From Thermosynechococcus sp. CL-1 (GTDB lineage: Bacteria; Cyanobacteriota; Cyanobacteriia; Thermosynechococcales; Thermosynechococcaceae): a DNA stretch of 64,000 nt. The position numbers and the translations under genes were made by a program. The notes under the pieces were generated by a model. It was given only the letters and a program-made list of their open reading frames with translations, was not told the origin of the DNA and did not search any database. Shown piece by piece: positions 4,257 to 16,399 of this stretch; the first letter of the stretch is position 1, and the number at the start of each line of letters is the position of its first letter. The stretch is taken from assembly GCF_008386235.1 (NCBI RefSeq), contig NZ_CP040671.1:372001-436000 (forward strand), read 5' to 3'.

Positions 4257-6010
4257 TGGTTGCTCCTCTAAGACTTTTGGGCGATCGCCTCTTCAGTGCT
4301 CTGCAAACCGCACTTCCTTTAGATACCTATCCCCAGCCGCTCCTGCTGCCGGCCAGTCAAGCCAAGTTTGGCGACTATCAATCCAATGTTTGCCTGAGCC
4401 TCGCCAAGCAGGTGGGCAAAGCACCCCGTGAGCTAGCCCAAGAGGTGGTGGCACATCTCAACGTTGAGGATCTCTGTCAACCCGTCGAAATTGCTGGCCC
4501 GGGCTTTCTCAATTTTCGTCTCAAGCCGGACTTTCTGGCGTGCAGCCTGCAAGCCGCTATTGGGAGCGATCGCTTGGGGATTCCGCCAGCACAAGAGCCA
4601 CGCCGGGTGGTGGTTGATTTTTCTAGCCCTAACATTGCCAAGGAAATGCACGTGGGTCACCTGCGCTCCACGATTATTGGTGACTGCATTGCCCGCATTC
4701 TTGAATTTCAAGGCCACGATGTCCTGCGGCTCAACCATGTGGGGGACTGGGGGACACAGTTTGGCATGCTCATTACCTACCTTGAGGAGGTTTATCCCGA
4801 CGCCCTCACGACTGCCAATGTCCTTGACTTGGGCGACTTGGTGACATTCTACAAAAAGGCCAAGCAACGCTTTGACAGCGATCCAAACTTCCAACAAAAG
4901 GCACGGCAGCAGGTGGTGGCGCTGCAGCAGGGGGAAGAACACAGTCGCCGCGCTTGGCAACTTCTGTGTGAGCAATCCCGCCGCGAGTTTCAAAAGATCT
5001 ACGATCTGCTAGATATTCAGCTTACGGAGCGGGGAGAGTCCTTCTACAATCCCTTTCTGCCCGCGGTGATTGAGGACTTAGCCGCATGCGGCCTCCTCGT
5101 GGAAGATCAGGGGGCAAAGGTCGTTTTCCTAGAGGGTTTTACAAACAAAGAGGGGCAACCCCAGCCCTTGATTATTCAAAAGTCCGATGGTGGCTACAAT
5201 TACGCAACCACGGATTTAGCTGCCCTGCGCTATCGCATTGAAAAGGATCAGGCGGACTGGATTATTTACGTCACCGATGTTGGGCAGTCCACCCACTTTG
5301 CCCAAGTCTTTCAAGTGGCGCAGCGCGCGGGTTGGGTGCCGCCCCATGTCACCCTCACCCATGTCCCCTTTGGCTTAGTGTTGGGGGAAGATGGCAAACG
5401 CTTGAAAACCCGTTCTGGGGAAACGATTCGCCTGATGGATTTGTTGACGGAGGCGATCGCCCGCAGTCGAGCGGATTTAGAACAGCGCCTTGCCAGTGAA
5501 GGCCGTAGTGAATCTCCAGAATTCATTGACACCGTGGCACGGGCGATCGGTATCGGTGCTGTCAAATACGCAGATCTTAGCCAAAACCGCAACAGTAACT
5601 ACGTCTTTAGCTACGACAAGATGCTCTCCCTACAGGGGAATACTGCTCCCTATTTGCTCTATGCCTATGTGCGTGTCCAAGGACTGACACGGCGCGGCGA
5701 CATTGATTGGCGCACCCTCTCACCAGATACCCCCCTCTTCCTAGAGGATGAGACCGAGCAAAACTTGGCCAAGCACCTTGTGCAACTGGAGGAAACCCTT
5801 GACCTTGTGAGCGCTGAGCTATTGCCCAACCGCCTCTGCCAATACCTCTTTGAACTGAGCCAGCTTTTTAACCAGTTCTACGATCGCTGTCCCATCCTTT
5901 CGGCAACTGAGCCAACGAAGCAATCCCGCTTGACCCTCGCCTATCTCACTGCTCAGACCCTGAAGCTAGGGCTATCCCTACTGGGGATTCGGGTTTTGGA
6001 TCGGATTTAG
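4256..6010 (+). CDS. argS: Arginyl-tRNA synthetase
   Basis: Class I aminoacyl-tRNA synthetase charging tRNA-Arg, 584 residues, cytoplasmic. It has the N-terminal Add-1 domain (about 1-110), then [17 protein letters not shown] with the HIGH-equivalent HVGH. The KMSKS-like region is [10 protein letters not shown], as is usual for ArgRS. A C-terminal DALR anticodon-binding domain includes [26 protein letters not shown]. The start chosen is the ATG at 4256 overlapping the TAA of the preceding small ORF; the frame is open 63 bp further up but that would overlap the small gene. Confidence 0.97.
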
Positions 6011-6067
6011 CGCCTTCTCGCTATACTGGGGCGCAGCACCACTGTTGTTTCTGGAATTTTCTAGAGT

Positions 6068-6400
6068 GTGGGAGGCCTATTCTCTAGTCTCTTACTGGCG
6101 GTTATCTTCCTGCTGACGTGGCCGCATCTCTACCTCATGCAGTTTTATTTTTGGCTATTTCGCCGCGAGTTGCCTAGCAAGCTAGAACTGGGGGGCTTGT
6201 TCATCATGCTTGTCATGGCAGGGGGAACAGGTCTTGGCTTCCTCATTGGTCTCGCCGCTGGATTTGTTCTGTTGCCGTGGCTTTGGCCTGAGTTGGGTCA
6301 ACTATGGCAAGGGTTAACGGTGGTCGCGATCTATTTTGTCAATTCGCTGATCTGGTTTGAACTCGGCTATCGCTGGGGTCAGTGGGAAGCAAAGCGTTAA
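6068..6400 (+). CDS. Hypothetical membrane protein (about three spans)
   Basis: A 110-residue protein starting at GTG 6068, 57 bp after argS. Hydrophobic segments lie at about 3-28, 43-72 and 78-98, and it ends with a charged tail (GYRWGQWEAKR). No recognisable enzymatic motif is present. Composition and codon use look like the neighbours, so it is likely a real conserved cyanobacterial membrane protein, but I cannot name the family. Confidence 0.6.
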   Translation: MGGLFSSLLLAVIFLLTWPHLYLMQFYFWLFRRELPSKLELGGLFIMLVMAGGTGLGFLIGLAAGFVLLPWLWPELGQLWQGLTVVAIYFVNSLIWFELGYRWGQWEAKR

Positions 6401-6484
6401 GTCTCTTCACAGTGTTGAGCGTGTTCTATTCATGGGAAAAGGGCTGTAAGATACATTGGTTGTTTGTGCGATCGCGACAGCACA

Positions 6485-7066
6485 ATGATTAAAAATGACA
6501 TTTGGATTCGGGCCATGGCGGCTCAGGGCATGATTCAGCCTTTTGAACCGACACTGGTGCGGCGGGTGGCTGAGCAGCCCGTGATTAGTTTTGGCCTTTC
6601 TTCCTACGGTTACGATATTCGCCTCAGCCCGAAGGAGTTTCGTATCTTTCGCCATGTGCCGGGGACGGTGGTGGATCCGAAGAACTTTAATCCTGCCAAT
6701 TTAGAATTTGCCCCCCTCCATGAAGATGCCAATGGTGCCTTCTTTATTTTGCCCGCCCATTCCTACGGTCTTGGGGTGGCGCTAGAACGCCTACAGGTTC
6801 CCGAAAATGTCACGGTTCTGTGTATTGGTAAAAGCTCCTATGCCCGTGCGGGGATTATTGCTAACCTGACACCGGCAGAGGCGGGCTGGCGAGGCCATCT
6901 GACCTTAGAATTCTCAAATTCTTCCAGTGCAGACTGTCGCATCTACGCCAATGAGGGAGTGGTGCAATTGCTCTTTTTTGAGGGTGAACCCTGCGATGTC
7001 AGTTATGAAACGCGGCGGGGCAAATACCAAGATCAGCCGGAGGCCGTCACATTGGCACGGGTTTGA
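6485..7066 (+). CDS. dcd: dCTP deaminase
   Basis: Converts dCTP to dUTP in the dTTP pathway, 193 residues, member of the trimeric dUTPase superfamily. The ATG at 6485 (MIKNDIWIRAMAAQGMIQPF) matches the family N-terminus. Conserved elements are SFGLSSYGYDIRLS, GKSSYARAGI and the catalytic-Glu segment GHLTLEFSN. Its last 34 bp overlap the convergent GTPase gene. Whether it is mono- or bifunctional (deaminase-dUTPase) was not resolved. Confidence 0.93.
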   Translation: MIKNDIWIRAMAAQGMIQPFEPTLVRRVAEQPVISFGLSSYGYDIRLSPKEFRIFRHVPGTVVDPKNFNPANLEFAPLHEDANGAFFILPAHSYGLGVALERLQVPENVTVLCIGKSSYARAGIIANLTPAEAGWRGHLTLEFSNSSSADCRIYANEGVVQLLFFEGEPCDVSYETRRGKYQDQPEAVTLARV

Positions 7067-8109
7067 GTGAGTTGCTGCAACAGCCGTTGGGGTCCATGGT
7101 GTCCCCATTGATAGCCCTGCTGAAGATAGGGGTCTAGGCGGCGGCGAATCTGTTGGTAGCCCCAGAAGATCACTCCCCCCTGGAGGACAACAGTCGTATT
7201 GACTCCCCAGAGTTCACTGCCGAAGGTCAAGCCTTGCCAACTAGAAAGATAAATCGCCGCATACCACAGTAAGACAAACTGACTCAGACTCCCAAAGGCC
7301 GGTAGGGGAAAGGGCACGGCATAGGCTTGGCACGCTTTGCGGATATAGGCAAGGGTACTGATTATCGCCAGCACGACATCGAAAAATCCCCCCGGCAGCA
7401 GCAGGCTACCCACCATCTGTGCGGTTAACCAAGACCATGCCGACGTGTCTTGCCTGCCAAGAGCTGCCCCGAGGTTCTGTTCAACTTGGCTGGCTTGGTG
7501 GAGAATTCGCAGGGCACGGGCTTGGGGAGCCTCCTGTTGTAACCACTGCTGAAGAAGCTGTCGCAGTTCTGGAATGCCCTGACCTGTTGTGCTGCTCACG
7601 GCAATACCTTCGGCCATTGGCGGGTAGAGATCCGCCTTGGTGAGAATCAGCTTGTGGGGAATCCTAAGGGTGTTTAGGCGATCGCGGGCTTGGTATTCGA
7701 CGGGGGTAAGGCTGTCTTGGGTCACAAAAAGGACAAGATCGGCAGTCTCAACGGCACTCCATGTCATGCTTTCGCGGTTACTACCCGCTACTTCATCCAG
7801 CCCAGGGGTATCAGTGAGATCGACGATTTGATCTTGACAGTGCCAGCGAACCGTTCGCGGCCATTGAGTCGTGCCATGAAGGGCGCCCACGGGAAAAATC
7901 GCTTCGCCATAGAGGGCATTCAAAAGGGCGGACTTGCCGCGGCTCACTTGACCCAAGACAACAATGTGCCATGCGCTCTGGTGGAGGCGATCGCGCAACT
8001 CATAGAGGGGCTGCCATTGGGCACTCAATTGCGGATGGTGCACCTGATGCCACGCGAGGAGTTCCTCTAGACATTTAGCCGTTATGTCTAGGATAGGGAG
8101 GCTACTCAC
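7033..8109 (-). CDS. Era/YihA-like GTPase with C-terminal membrane segments
   Basis: A 358-residue P-loop GTPase. G1 is GQVSRGKS (53-60), G3 is DTPG, G4 is TKAD and a G5-like SSTTG follows. After the G domain the C-terminal half has two or three hydrophobic stretches (from MVGSLLLPGGFFDVVLAII to FVLLWYAAIYLSS), so it is probably membrane-anchored. Comparable cyanobacterial GTPases are uncharacterised. It starts at GTG 8109, overlapping the 3' end of the small membrane ORF by 8 bp, and closes a three-gene overlapping set with the pentapeptide gene. Confidence 0.85.
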   Translation of the reverse strand: MSSLPILDITAKCLEELLAWHQVHHPQLSAQWQPLYELRDRLHQSAWHIVVLGQVSRGKSALLNALYGEAIFPVGALHGTTQWPRTVRWHCQDQIVDLTDTPGLDEVAGSNRESMTWSAVETADLVLFVTQDSLTPVEYQARDRLNTLRIPHKLILTKADLYPPMAEGIAVSSTTGQGIPELRQLLQQWLQQEAPQARALRILHQASQVEQNLGAALGRQDTSAWSWLTAQMVGSLLLPGGFFDVVLAIISTLAYIRKACQAYAVPFPLPAFGSLSQFVLLWYAAIYLSSWQGLTFGSELWGVNTTVVLQGGVIFWGYQQIRRRLDPYLQQGYQWGHHGPQRLLQQLTQTRANVTASG

Positions 8110-10939: not shown

Positions 10940-11682
10940 TTTCTAGCCCTGCCATTGATTTACAAGATGTGACGGTGGCCTATCATCGCCATCTTGCCCT
11001 CCATGGGGCAACGCTGCAACTGCCCGCCGGCACGATCTGTGGGGTCGTGGGGATGAATGGGGCTGGTAAATCCACCCTTTTCAAGGCCATCATGGGGTTT
11101 GTCAAGCCGATCCGAGGTCAGGTACGCATTCATGGCTTACCCCGACAGCAGGTACAACGGCAGTCCCTTGTGGCCTATGTACCCCAAAGTGAAGATGTCG
11201 ATTGGCAGTTCCCGCTGCGGGTCTGGGATGTCGTGATGATGGGGCGCTATGGCAAAATGAACTGGCTGCGCCAACCAACCGCGCGCGATCGCCAGCGGGT
11301 AGGGGAAAGTCTAGAACAGGTGGAATTGTGGCCTCTGCGGCACCGCCAAATTGGCGAACTCTCCGGCGGACAAAAGAAACGCATGTTCCTTGCCCGCGCC
11401 TTTGCCCAAGAAGCACAGGTGTTGCTCTTGGATGAACCCTTTGCGGGTGTGGATGTAAAAACGGAGAAACTGATTATTGATCTCCTCATGGCGGAGCGGG
11501 AGAAGGGGCACACAATTCTCATCTCCACTCATGATCTCTCCTCGATTACCACCTTTTGTGATCAGGTGGTGCTGGTGAACCGCAGCATCCTAGCCTATGG
11601 CCGCACCAGTGAGGTCTTTACCCCTGAAAATCTCGCGCGAGCCTTCGAGGGATCCCTGCGGATCCCCCGCCGCTGTGACTAG
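10936..11682 (+). CDS. mntA: Manganese ABC transporter ATP-binding protein
   Basis: Cytoplasmic ATPase subunit, 248 residues. Walker A is GMNGAGKST, the Q-loop is [10 protein letters not shown], the signature LSGGQKKR, Walker B VLLLDEPF and the switch His is in ISTHD. ATGA overlap with mntC shows translational coupling. The usual membrane subunit (mntB) does not follow: the next gene is convergent and overlaps the mntA stop by 4 bp, so the permease must be encoded elsewhere or be shared. Confidence 0.9.
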
Positions 11683-12842
11683 CCCCGACGAATCGGTGTA
11701 CCACAGGGATAGGTGGCTACAGGTGCTGCAGGGGGCAGGTCTTTCACCTTGTGCTGAAGTTGCGCTTGCAGGTAGAGCTGTTGGAGGCGTTCGACCATTT
11801 CGCCGCGGCGATCGTAGAGGCGTTTGAGGGGACGGGGTTGACAGCGATTGAGGCAGTAGGCGGTAAGGATGGGAAGAGCGATCGTGCTATCGGTGTAGCA
11901 GACCACGGTATCCCGCAACCCTTGGGGATCCACCTTGCCCCAACTGACGGCTTCACTGGGCACAGCGCCCGAGAGGCCACCCGTATCCGGCCGCGCATCG
12001 GTAATCTGAATAAAGTAATCGTGCCCCCGTTCCTCTAATCCCAAAACCTCGTGGATCTGTGGCTGGGTTTGCAGCAGGAAGTTTTTCGGACTCCCGCCAC
12101 CAATAATGAGAGCGGCACTCTTACCATTTCCTTCAGCGGCTTCGCGGGCAAAGTAGGCAATCGCAGCGGTTTCATTGACATCAATGGCGGGGTCAATGAT
12201 CAGTTTCGACCCTTCGAGGGCGATCGCCGCCACATTCATACCAATGGAGCTATCACCGGGGGAGGAGGTGTAAATGGGCACCCCACACTCATAGGCCGTG
12301 GCCAAGAGACAGGAATGGGTTTGTCCCCGCTGCACTTCCAGTTCGCGGACATAGCGCCCTAGGTGATAGTGAAACTCGGCGGTGCCCATGCGGCGTTGGA
12401 AGGTTTCACTGCGCAGCACTTGCCGCAAAAAGGCGTCAGTTTCAAGGAGCACATCGTAGTCAAAGATAATGTCATAGATGCGGATTTTGCTTTCCTTGCG
12501 CAGTTGCACATCATCGACAAAAGGATGCGCCGCATAGAGATCCATGCCGAGGGCATAGTGAATATCGTGGTAGAGGTTTGCCCCAGTGCTAATAATGTAA
12601 TCAACAAATCCCGCCCGCACTAAAGGCGCTAAGGCAGAGATGCCCAATCCCGTGGGGGTCATCGCCCCTGAGAGGCTGAGGCCAACCGTCACTTCTGGCT
12701 GGAAGACCCGTTGGCTCAGAAGTTGGCAGATTTCCCGCAAGCGTGCCGAGTTGTAGGCGGTAAAGTATTTATCAATAAGTTCTGTTAAGGTGATATTGTC
12801 GGGAATGGGCGCAGGGGTAATGGGGGTAGCAAATGCAGACAT
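11679..12842 (-). CDS. speY: Deoxyhypusine synthase-like protein, probable homospermidine synthase
   Basis: A 387-residue member of the deoxyhypusine synthase fold, starting at ATG 12842. Visible motifs are [22 protein letters not shown] and the active-site segment SEAVSWGK (Lys303), equivalent to the lysine that carries the aminobutyl intermediate. Bacteria lack eIF5A, so true deoxyhypusine synthesis is unlikely. In Anabaena a homologue, SpeY, makes homospermidine from putrescine and spermidine-type donors in the pathway after SpeA and SpeB. The same role is inferred here. The gene stands alone, convergent with mntA. Confidence 0.8.
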
Positions 12843-13236
12843 TGGTCGTTCCTCGCAAGCTAATTCCACAGCAGGGGCAGCCGCCCAGTCAGGAACATTC
12901 CTAACCGCAACATGACTAGACCCGCTGAGGGATGTCTAATGGGTTGAAGTTGTTAAAAACTTGAAGTGCAGTAACAGTGATGAACACGCTCAACACTTCT
13001 GATCGACCCAGTTCACACAGGGGTGAACACTTGCAGGCCGATCAGCTCATACTCGGTCCTTCGCAATTATCCACAACCGAGAGTGCAGGGATGGCTGCTC
13101 GCCGTTGGCGCAACCCCATTTCGAGATACCAAGTGGTGATGTTGGGATAGCCCATCAACGTCAATTGTTTCACTGTTGACAAGTCCCATGCCCTTACATT
13201 ACGAGATCACTATAACACTTCATTACCTAATTTGCC
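12843..13236. other. Intergenic region between speY and small membrane gene
   Basis: About 390 bp separate speY from the next confident gene. It must contain the speY promoter on the minus strand. On the plus strand it holds one possible 56-codon ORF (listed separately) and a TTGACA hexamer at 13176-13181 that has no convincing -10 partner at 16-18 bp. No tRNA or riboswitch fold was recognised. Confidence 0.4.
12980..13150 (+). CDS. Possible small protein (56 residues), unrecognised
   Basis: ATG 12980 opens a 56-codon frame ending TAG 13150. The N-terminal part is polar (MNTLNTSDRPSSHRGEH); the C-terminal part is basic and aromatic (MAARRWRNPISRYQVVMLG), which looks more like protein than random translation. 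No family is recognised and no strong ribosome-binding site is seen. It could equally be leader DNA of the gene at 13237. Confidence 0.35.
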   Translation: MNTLNTSDRPSSHRGEHLQADQLILGPSQLSTTESAGMAARRWRNPISRYQVVMLG

Positions 13237-13431: not shown

Positions 13432-15249
13432 CTATAAGGCCACCGCTAGTTGCGGGGATTCTAGGGGCAGCGGTTGCAGGGGGACGGTCGTTGGTGTACT
13501 TGGCAATAGGGCGGTACGAAACTGGGGTGAGTTTCCCTGCCAAAACTCGGCCATAAAGGCAGTGGCGTTGTTGGTGACGACATTGACCACAGGATGCAAG
13601 CCCAAAAACATGCCGCCAAAGGTAACGGCTAAATTGGGGAGAGAAATCAAGGCGACATTTTGATAGGTGCGCTCTAGGGCATCGCGGGCAATGGCCATGC
13701 CACGGCCAAGGGCAGACCAGTCGCCATCCAAGAGAACGACCACTTTGGCATTGGGGGCAAAGGTAGGGGGCTGCCAGCGAATCGGTAGCCATGTGGATTC
13801 AGGACAGGAGCAGGTTTCACCAAAGCTAATCCAACCCACCCGCCGCCGCTTACCCACGAGGTAGGCCTGCAGATCGGTGAGGCGATCGCTCGTCAGATCG
13901 GTGGTGCCCTCAAGGGGCGAGCCTTGATCTTGCAGCAGATAGATATGAAGGCCAAGGTGTCGCAATTGCTGAATCAGGATTTGTGCCCGTTCGGGCTGGG
14001 GAAGACCTGCGCGAGCATCAATCACCAAGCTCTCTAGTTGTGCCAGTTGCTCTAAGGTACCAGCGGTGGGTAAATAGATCCCCTGTTGCACAGCAAATAC
14101 CTGCGCCGAGAGCATTACCGTCCGCAGCGACAGTTGCACACCACTGCCAAAGTCAAATTGTAGGGGGGCGATCGCTGGCCCATAGGCTCCCGTAGCCAAC
14201 CAGAGGGCACCACTGAGGGCAAGGGTTGGCAGCACCGCATGGCGGGCAAATTCCCCCTGTTGGTGGGCAAGGGCACTGTCATAGACCGGTTCAGTGTGTA
14301 GCAGATCCGTAATGAGACCAAGGCGCGTTTGCCAACCGGTGCGCATCACCCGCAGTTGAACCTGTCCCGTGAGAATTTGACAGCCGGCATAGAGAGCATC
14401 GCCGGGGCGACAAACCCGCACCTGTCGAGAGAATTCAAAATGGGCAGGCTCCACTTCCGCCAATCCAGCAACAACACTGCCATCTACGGGCACAACATCC
14501 CCCGGCCGCAGCCACAGGAGATCTCCCACTTGTAACTCCTGACTTTCAATCGTCAGGGAATGTCCTTGGCGTTCCACCGTCAGGTGTTCGTAGTGAGCCA
14601 TCAAGACACTGGGATATCGATGCAACTGTTGTCGTCGCTGGCGATCGCGCACGTCTGCCCGTACCCCCACTAGGGCAGTCTTCAAGGCAGGCGCTAAGAA
14701 CTGGCCATTGACGGTATGCAGTGCCATCCAGAGGCTATCGAGCAAATCCACATTGGGGGGATGTCCCTGATACATCTGATGCCCCACCCGCTGAAACCAC
14801 GGCCAAGCACTGGCCAAGACCGTAGCCCCAACCACCGCGAAGGGCAATTCCAAGGGCACACTGAGGAGCGAGACCCCCAAGGCCACCAAGGGCAGTCCCA
14901 AGCGTTCCCAATCGCTTTCAAGGCGAGCATCGGCCTCTACTTGTGCTTCGTAATCTTCAAGGGCGATCGCATCCGCAGGAGCCGCACTATCCGGCAAGGG
15001 CTGCGGCATGGCCACCATGGCTTGCTGAAAACAGTGATTCAAACTTTCATAGACCGCCGCTTCATGGAGCAAATGGGGTTGATACTCCACCACCACCGTT
15101 GCCGCTTGGGGATTGAGCCGTACCCGCTCGACAATGGCCAAAGACTCCAGCAACTGCACCAATAACTCTCCGTAGGCCGAATCTCGCTGCACACGCGGCA
15201 CGCGAAAGCGCACCCGTCCTGTTGTGGCATGGACAATTTGCTGCTCCAT
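13432..15249 (-). CDS. Degenerate heavy-metal P-type ATPase (probable pseudoenzyme)
   Basis: A 605-residue protein with the overall layout of a P1B ATPase but without its chemistry. The N-terminus (MEQQIVHATTGRVRFRVP) resembles the HMA-like domain found before such pumps. The actuator keeps LRPGDVVPVDG (about 249-257) but the TGES loop reads AHFE. Where the catalytic DKTGT should be, after TAGTLEQLAQLESLV, the sequence is IDARAGLP (Asp411 remains, KTGT is lost). The CPx ion motif is absent, the nucleotide-binding domain is largely missing, and the hinge motif is reduced to LLDGDWSALGRG. The frame is intact with no internal stop, so it is probably a maintained, non-transporting protein. The ATG at 15249 is preferred to an upstream TTG. 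Confidence 0.8.
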   Translation of the reverse strand: MEQQIVHATTGRVRFRVPRVQRDSAYGELLVQLLESLAIVERVRLNPQAATVVVEYQPHLLHEAAVYESLNHCFQQAMVAMPQPLPDSAAPADAIALEDYEAQVEADARLESDWERLGLPLVALGVSLLSVPLELPFAVVGATVLASAWPWFQRVGHQMYQGHPPNVDLLDSLWMALHTVNGQFLAPALKTALVGVRADVRDRQRRQQLHRYPSVLMAHYEHLTVERQGHSLTIESQELQVGDLLWLRPGDVVPVDGSVVAGLAEVEPAHFEFSRQVRVCRPGDALYAGCQILTGQVQLRVMRTGWQTRLGLITDLLHTEPVYDSALAHQQGEFARHAVLPTLALSGALWLATGAYGPAIAPLQFDFGSGVQLSLRTVMLSAQVFAVQQGIYLPTAGTLEQLAQLESLVIDARAGLPQPERAQILIQQLRHLGLHIYLLQDQGSPLEGTTDLTSDRLTDLQAYLVGKRRRVGWISFGETCSCPESTWLPIRWQPPTFAPNAKVVVLLDGDWSALGRGMAIARDALERTYQNVALISLPNLAVTFGGMFLGLHPVVNVVTNNATAFMAEFWQGNSPQFRTALLPSTPTTVPLQPLPLESPQLAVAL

Positions 15250-15270
15250 CAACGCTCCCGTGAAGTTCAA

Positions 15271-15591
15271 TCAAGACCGGTGACGCACCGTTTCTCGTGT
15301 GGCGTAATCCATAAAGCCATAGGCTAATGTTTCCAAAATCATTTCCCACCCTTCAGGTCTCGACAAATCAATACCTCTAACATCTACGATATAGATTGGA
15401 TTTCCCTCTCGATCAAAAGCAATTGTATTTTCTTTTTCTGCTAAAATTATTTTCGGTGTTAGGCATCCTGTTACTTTTAATTTGTAGCCCGCTTTTTCAC
15501 ATATTTCCTCAAGTGTATAAATCATTTCATAGGAGTAACACCTTTTCTCATATTTTGGCGGTGGTATAAAAACGCGATATAGTTTTCTCAT
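15271..15591 (-). CDS. Hypothetical protein, partner of nucleotidyltransferase-like gene
   Basis: A 106-residue protein, AT-rich codon use. It starts MRKLYRVFIPPPKYEKRC and ends ETLAYGFMDYATRETVRHRS; no catalytic motif is recognised and no membrane segment is seen. Its ATG overlaps the stop of the upstream nucleotidyltransferase-like gene (ATGA), so the two form a coupled pair. A toxin-antitoxin or abortive-infection partner role is possible but not shown. It ends just before the P-type-ATPase-like gene on the same strand, so read-through is possible. Confidence 0.6.
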   Translation of the reverse strand: MRKLYRVFIPPPKYEKRCYSYEMIYTLEEICEKAGYKLKVTGCLTPKIILAEKENTIAFDREGNPIYIVDVRGIDLSRPEGWEMILETLAYGFMDYATRETVRHRS

Positions 15592-16214
15592 ACTTCTAAA
15601 TCGAGCAAAATTTGACTATTTTTCTGTGTTGACTTACGTAATGCACTTGCTTGTTGAGAATTGTTTTTGCACATTTCTAGATACTTTGAATTATCACTAA
15701 TTGCCAATTTAATAAGTTTTATTTTTTCTTGATCTAAGTAGTTTTTCAAAATATCAATTCTTGGACTTTTCATCATGTTTAAGATGCGAATAATATCTCG
15801 CTTATCTTTATCGCCTTTTGATGAATGAAACCTGTCAGAATAAGCATCTAACTTAAGAATTAATAGATGCTCTAAGCACGCACAGGGCAAATTATCAATA
15901 ACTATTTTTTCTGCATTGACCTCACAAAAGGGTATAGCGAGATGATTATTTCTTTCAACATAGACATCAAATTCCCATCCATTCTTAATGAGCTGATACT
16001 TATTTAAGCGCCGGTTTGGTGTGATCTCTTCCAAATCTCGTAAATCTGCAAAATCAATAAGGGAGATGTAGAAGTCTCCATCATGACTGCTTTCAGCAAG
16101 ATGCAATAGACCTTGGGATTTGCTATGCAGATAAACTGCGATTCCGCCAATAAAAATCGCACCGTCAGGGAACAGTTCAGCTAATTCTTGGCTGGTTTTA
16201 AGCAGTTCTTCCAT
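15588..16214 (-). CDS. Nucleotidyltransferase-fold protein (AbiEii/MNT-like)
   Basis: A 208-residue protein from ATG 16214; the frame is open for 25 more codons upstream, so the start is uncertain. The fold is suggested by FIGGIAVYLH (Gly23-Gly24), an acidic pair in SHDGDFYIS (Asp45, Asp47) and a third Asp in EFDVYVERN (Asp83). This is the GG/DxD/D pattern of minimal nucleotidyltransferases, including toxins of the AbiEii and MenT groups. A helical C-terminal part follows (KLDAYSDRFHSSKGDKDKRDI). AT-rich and translationally coupled to the downstream 106-residue gene. The substrate is not known. Confidence 0.65.
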   Translation of the reverse strand: MEELLKTSQELAELFPDGAIFIGGIAVYLHSKSQGLLHLAESSHDGDFYISLIDFADLRDLEEITPNRRLNKYQLIKNGWEFDVYVERNNHLAIPFCEVNAEKIVIDNLPCACLEHLLILKLDAYSDRFHSSKGDKDKRDIIRILNMMKSPRIDILKNYLDQEKIKLIKLAISDNSKYLEMCKNNSQQASALRKSTQKNSQILLDLEV

Positions 16215-16399
16215 CAGAAGCTCGCCAAAGGTTGTGGTCGTAATCGTACGCTGAGTAAGTCTACCTGTACGATAGCAAACTTGAGTCAAACCACAAAGTT
16301 TTCCAAATAGCCTGTCAATCAGGAGACCCTATCAGAAGGCTGTAGATCACTTCCTAGGTTAGAGGGGAGCACCTGAGATCAAAAACTAGCCATTGTCGC

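Follow-up and report, generated by a model that had tools for sequence, protein, structure and literature searches.

A conserved dead relative of P1B-type ATPases in cyanobacteria, a candidate partner of working pumps in calcium handling

Is a P-type ATPase gene whose product has lost its catalytic motifs a relic, or does the product still serve the cell in some other way? The question is raised by an open reading frame on the minus strand, at 13432..15249, of a 64,000-nucleotide stretch of the genome of Thermosynechococcus sp. CL-1, a hot-spring cyanobacterium (NZ_CP040671.1, positions 372,001 to 436,000), referred to below as the window. An earlier note on this DNA had described the product as a P-type ATPase pseudoenzyme, seemingly maintained by selection in an intact frame and perhaps acting as a scaffold, metal sensor, or assembly partner. 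The frame is indeed intact, running from an ATG at 15249, a start common to the orthologues, through 605 amino acids to a stop. Among kinases and proteases, pseudoenzymes are familiar; for P-type ATPases, the literature that we searched, mostly without subscription papers, contained no description of a conserved dead clade. These proteins may already figure in the CoBaHMA paper (Gaschignard 2024).

By its fold and its place in the tree, the window protein is a P1B-type ATPase relative by descent. Its N-terminal region, called HMA-like in the earlier note, is a PF19991 (HMA_2) domain (residues 4 to 78, 15016..15240), the domain common to calcyanin, which passes the Pfam cutoff narrowly (30.3 bits against 30) and scores 33.4 bits in a genome-wide search. 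Within the clade of pseudo-ATPases, residues H7, G11, R12, R14, R44, and N46 of this domain are invariant. We take PF19991 to be the CoBaHMA family, for which Gaschignard 2024 reportedly described an HMA fold bearing conserved basic residues; basic residues H, R, and R of the domain are invariant in the pseudo clade, the equation with CoBaHMA being assumed. The domain is followed by helices MA, MB, M1, and M2 (residues 113 to 200, 14650..14913, placed by the AlphaFold model), the actuator region already recognized earlier, now a remnant with a clear PF00122 match in Pfam (residues 201 to 322, 14284..14649; 70.8 bits, E 1.4e-19), helices M3 and M4 (residues 323 to 408, 14026..14283, from the model), a minimal P-domain remnant without the N-domain insert (residues 409 to 512, 13714..14025, from alignment and model), and helices M5 and M6 (residues 513 to 571, 13537..13713, from the alignment), all on the minus strand. 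No N-domain or hydrolase family was matched by Pfam in the protein, its P-type ATPase matches in NCBIfam all stayed below cutoff, and it carries no signaling domain.

The AlphaFold model, built from 13 orthologues (pLDDT 73, pTM 0.59), predicts a ferredoxin-like order of strands and helices for the N-terminal domain, helices compatible with the eight membrane spans of P1B ATPases, an actuator remnant, and a small Rossmann-like P-domain. The comparison with a P1B ATPase proposed in the earlier note placed the predicted fold among these pumps, which were its best structural matches (CopA 7r0g, Z 23.9, rmsd 5.5 over 464; ZntA 4umv, Z 21.6); modeled residues 388 to 526 matched the CopA P/N construct 3a1d over 138 residues (rmsd 3.0, Z 13.8). 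The window protein thus resembles CopA and ZntA in its membrane core, actuator, and P-domain fold, but it has no CPx motif, catalytic motifs, or N-domain, and its N-terminal domain is different.

The state of the catalytic motifs was read from an alignment of 17 pseudo-ATPases, 28 PF19991-bearing ATPases with DKTGT, and three CPx pumps. At the DKTGT position (residues 411 to 415, 14005..14019) the window protein has DARAG, as had been read before, with the Asp position kept and K, T, G, and T lost. The TGES position (residues 272 to 275, 14425..14436) is occupied by EFSR; the loss of this motif stands, while the replacement AHFE previously given for it lies three residues off. TGD and GDGxND are missing too, so that TGES, KTGT, TGD, and GDGxND are all absent and the description as a pseudoenzyme holds. 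The N-domain, with its HP motif, had been thought mostly deleted; its deletion is complete, both in the window protein and in every relative within the pseudo clade. No hidden intact catalytic motif, including the phosphorylation motif, emerged from the alignment with the 28 DKTGT-bearing relatives. Since the motifs are lost and the ATP-binding domain is absent, we strongly infer that the protein should be incapable of a phosphorylation cycle. The decay of the motifs is uneven among the dead members: in the G135 member TGEN and DQTG remain, a sign that the loss of the N-domain would have preceded the decay of the other motifs.

The absence of CPx, listed earlier among the losses, was rejected as a mark of decay, because CPx is missing from all 28 DKTGT-bearing PF19991 relatives as well. 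At this site most of them read D-[FL]-G-T-G-I-R-x-S-x-P-T and the window protein D-F-G-S-G-V-Q-L-S-L-R-T, so that its D-F-G-S-G matches their D-F-G-T-G. This M4 motif, D366-F-G-S-G370 (14140..14154), which occupies the CPx position of Cu/Zn pumps, is invariant in the pseudo clade, as are N531, P538, N539, N560, N561, and E568 of M5 and M6. The arginine and the proline found in M4 of working pumps, a term that here denotes no more than the presence of the catalytic motifs, are retained in 0 of 13 and 1 of 13 pseudo members, respectively; the membrane site is therefore kept only in an altered form and, given these two losses, may bind no ion. Columns invariant in working pumps and retained in at least 90% of the pseudo members, which we define as kept, made up 5/7 in the PF19991 domain, 7/10 in MA to M2, 10/28 in M3 and M4, and 6/13 in M5 and M6, dropping to 3/28 for the actuator and 1/64 for the P and N domains. 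The two PF19991-bearing P1B ATPases that are paralogues in the same genome (G000:C1:2083.8 kb and 900.5 kb) are like the window protein in their domain order, their N-terminal domain, D-F/L-G in M4, and N..PN in M5, with 31 to 34% identity over residues 3 to 419. Unlike the window protein, which has none of these features, they keep TGE, DKTGT, T/SGD, G[DE]GxND, and the N-domain.

Pairwise dN/dS values, calculated with our own NG86 script, had a median of 0.141 and a range of 0.105 to 0.211 for the pseudo-ATPase, and were 0.069 and 0.107 for the two working paralogues. The lineage of dead pumps is under purifying selection, as the earlier note had surmised. By region, dN/dS was lowest in M3 and M4 (0.05), the most constrained part of the protein, followed by the PF19991 domain (0.08) and M5 and M6 (0.094); higher values were obtained for MA to M2 (0.12), the actuator (0.15), and the P-domain remnant (0.22). 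Nine full-length intact copies, including that of the window, occur in Thermosynechococcus and show 76 to 95% identity to the window protein. A tenth copy in the genus (G009) is split by a frameshift on a metagenome-assembled genome (MAG) contig with ~2.7x coverage, and the gene is absent from one MAG (G006, 90% complete).

Homologues with the same losses were sought in 388 class genomes and 386 phylum genomes, two overlapping draws, by profile searches, which found the dead form in six cyanobacterial families (f1, f8, f15, f16, f25, and f32); a scan of contigs added a Phormidium member (LEGE 05292). The pseudo members form a single clade, with an SH-aLRT of 100 in a quick tree and 100/100 in a careful tree limited to well-filled columns, and the dead form would have arisen once. 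With 605 aligned residues, nine intact full-length copies in the genus, and members in five more families, the resemblance is no accident. Its sister is most likely working pump A of the genomic island described below (support 90/85). The actuator has been deleted outright twice, once in the Leptolyngbyaceae (L094) and once, on a separate branch, in Phormidium (L181). An internal TAA considered in the G626 copy was rejected, as the frame is intact there and the TAA is its end. A relative of the PF19991-type ATPases also lies on a 4980-base MAG contig binned as Clostridia (L180); it may be real, transferred, or misbinned. The selection and distribution data bear directly on the idea that the gene is a decaying pseudogene, to which the frameshifted G009 copy, on its thinly covered contig, and the faster evolution of the actuator and P-domain than of other parts could be attributed. 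The copies found are not merely scattered and frameshifted ones, since the one split relative stands beside full-length members that are otherwise intact, evolve at a dN/dS of 0.14, and make up one clade over six families. On the strength of dN/dS and breadth of distribution, decay was rejected and is hardly credible.

All 20 of the pseudo-ATPase-bearing genomes among the 388 class genomes also carry at least one working PF19991 ATPase; a match to the family of any kind is found in just 70 of the 388. In four families the dead pump lies within a conserved island of ~20 to 30 kb (G016 [Aphanocapsa, f1], G135 and G218 [both f16], G197 [f25], and G626 [f32]), and matching contig pieces occur in G221 (f25) and G287 (f16), where fragmentation leaves the linkage partial and some genes beyond the pieces. 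The island gene set given here is a composite of which individual genomes show subsets. It includes working pumps A (~770 aa) and B (~930 aa), NosAFP, DUF5132, MntP-like, and ParB-like genes, an FGE-domain protein, a Nif11-like peptide, and a PF19991 protein, the Nif11 and ParB labels being assigned by eye. It further includes a Ca/H exchanger (TIGR00378, 398 bits against a cutoff of 211) and/or a Ca-ATPase-like pump, whose best NCBIfam match, TIGR01522, is below cutoff (680 bits against 798). In G197, G218, G287, and G626 the dead pump has the exchanger close by, as does pump B in G016, G135, G197, and G626; the Ca-ATPase-like pump was found in G016, G135, and G197. The PF19991 protein near the pseudo-ATPase in G016 was considered as a calcyanin and rejected, being a relative with one clear glycine zipper. 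Two details of the island genes may be added: NosAFP is a Get3/ArsA-like ATPase, and pump A (L051, L072, L084, L086, L087, and L090) has GEGIND for GDGxND, an Asp-to-Glu change within the hinge motif.

In Phormidium LEGE 05292, the ORF of a working pump (5288-7810) overlaps by 38 bases the ORF of the 524-aa dead pump, which starts at 7773; this overlap suggests that their production may be coupled. A tail module of ~50 residues, with the consensus xLAxRLxVxxQALxxxRxKPxFxxWxxxxDPExxAWxYD, is common to several pseudo-ATPases, one working pump, and PF19991 proteins. In Thermosynechococcus the pseudo-ATPase gene is solitary, away from calcyanin and the working pumps, and no constant neighbors of it were found between the two subclades of the genus; the linkage is therefore borrowed from other genera.

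The genome that contains the window also encodes, at G000:C1 ~1200.2-1201.2 kb, a protein with a PF19991 N terminus and then three glycine zippers, presumably the architecture of calcyanin, so that we take this protein to be calcyanin, the founding paper on which is said to be Benzerara 2022. Calcyanin shares with the window protein the N-terminal PF19991 domain, the genome, and a tendency to co-occur, but it has three glycine zippers after that domain and no pump, and the two are not homologous over its length. Calcyanin is the marker of intracellular amorphous calcium carbonate (ACC). The role of its gene, ccyA, has been described (PMC11773610, PMC12836880). In T. elongatus BP-1, ACC forms inside the cell, at septa and at poles (PMC6087745).

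Calcyanin-like glycine-zipper proteins were matched in 26 of the 388 class genomes, and 17 of the 20 dead-pump genomes carry one. The co-occurrence amounted to 8/9 genera with the pseudo-ATPase against 5/151 others (Fisher p 1e-9), to 5/5 against 3/38 families (p 6e-5; the total of 43 families is approximate), and, for strict calcyanins with three glycine zippers, a class assigned by eye, to 6/9 against 3/151 genera (p 3e-7), all p-values that overstate the case because the sampled genomes are related. Neither protein requires the other, because each occurs alone: Gloeomargarita-type and other calcyanin genomes are devoid of the pseudo-ATPase, and three pseudo-ATPase genera are devoid of a three-zipper calcyanin. 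Another type of PF19991 protein, in which the glycine zippers number about two, is found at L148 (G117), L149 (G281), L156 (G042), and L212 (G626); in G117 and G281 it comes directly after a working PF19991 ATPase. At L142 (G271), a three-zipper calcyanin gene sits between two PF19991 ATPase matches, a physical linkage in that genome.

We propose, giving the idea about an even chance of being right, that the window protein is a conserved pseudoenzyme and a partner of working PF19991-type P-ATPases, with a part in regulating or assembling them, in the handling of calcium or, more broadly, alkaline-earth ions. Its history would probably have begun with a single duplication of a PF19991-type (CoBaHMA-type) P1B ATPase, after which the N-domain would have been deleted and the catalytic motifs would have decayed, the PF19991 domain being retained along with a diverged membrane core that keeps polar residues of the site typical of the family. 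The dead pump would then regulate or assemble the working PF19991-type P-ATPases of the same cell, as part of a calcium-handling system that in many members would be tied to calcyanin and intracellular ACC; perhaps it keeps the working pumps together with calcyanin at a membrane site. We favor a partner in assembly or regulation because, in our sample, the dead form is always accompanied by working PF19991 pumps, shares the island with them, and overlaps one in Phormidium. Calcium is the presumable substrate because of the island genes and the oxygen-bearing membrane residues, and its link to the dead pump is one of association; the partnership would be a physical one, and the dead pump may affect mineral formation. 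A functional analogy might be seen in mycobacterial efflux platforms, in which PacL scaffolds hold P-ATPases (PMC9374683): PacL, too, is a noncatalytic membrane protein working with P-ATPases, the role proposed here for the window protein. However, PacL (DUF1490) is small and unrelated, and the window protein has no DUF1490 match in Pfam, which makes the precedent a functional one only; in the present case a dead P-ATPase would take the part of the partner. A bolder version, which we find doubtful, would make this ancient dead P-type ATPase a dedicated subunit of a cyanobacterial calcium-transport and biomineralization machine, pairing with working PF19991 pumps and helping to load the calcyanin-linked ACC compartment.

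Three other roles were considered. As a membrane anchor or scaffold, the protein could recruit calcyanin, acidic lipids, or further PF19991 proteins through its own PF19991 domain to the place where the mineral forms, taking no part in pump regulation or ion binding. The invariant basic residues of the domain, its presence together with the C-terminal module in glycine-zipper proteins, and an actuator dispensable twice all agree with this role; however, the strongest constraint lies beyond the PF19991 domain, in M3 and M4, and the invariant polar residues of M4, M5, and M6 exceed the needs of a mere anchor, and we consider the explanation rather unlikely. The same polar residues (D366, N531, N539, N560, N561, and E568), along with the weaker constraint on actuator and P-domain, could instead point to a channel or carrier for passive cation movement, in which the membrane domain of a P-ATPase, freed from its engine, lets ions run down their gradient. 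The loss of the M4 proline and arginine speaks against such a function, as does the lack of a precedent for a dead P-type ATPase in our literature search, conducted mostly without subscription papers, and it appears improbable. A cation sensor, in which an ion or anion bound at the membrane site or by the PF19991 domain triggers a signal to other proteins, would draw on the same conserved sites and on the transporters of the island context, but it would have to signal without a signaling domain, and the sole constant candidate regulator, the ParB-like gene, is several kilobases off; this role strikes us as distinctly improbable. The dead clade and the island together make a short, testable list of candidate genes for intracellular calcium carbonate. 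To our knowledge, such genes of cyanobacteria are largely undescribed apart from calcyanin. The candidates are found in Thermosynechococcus, a genus with a strain already known to form the mineral.

Two further features of the window deserve mention. At 15250-16289, two ORFs on the minus strand (106 and 233 aa), neither of which matches Pfam or NCBIfam, have taken the place of the upstream DNA common to most orthologues, the replacement reaching to ~20 bases from the ATG; the pseudo-ATPase gene here may have lost its native promoter and may be transcribed from these two ORFs. At 11679-12869, the window encodes a protein resembling deoxyhypusine synthase (PF01916, 237 bits), here in a cyanobacterium.
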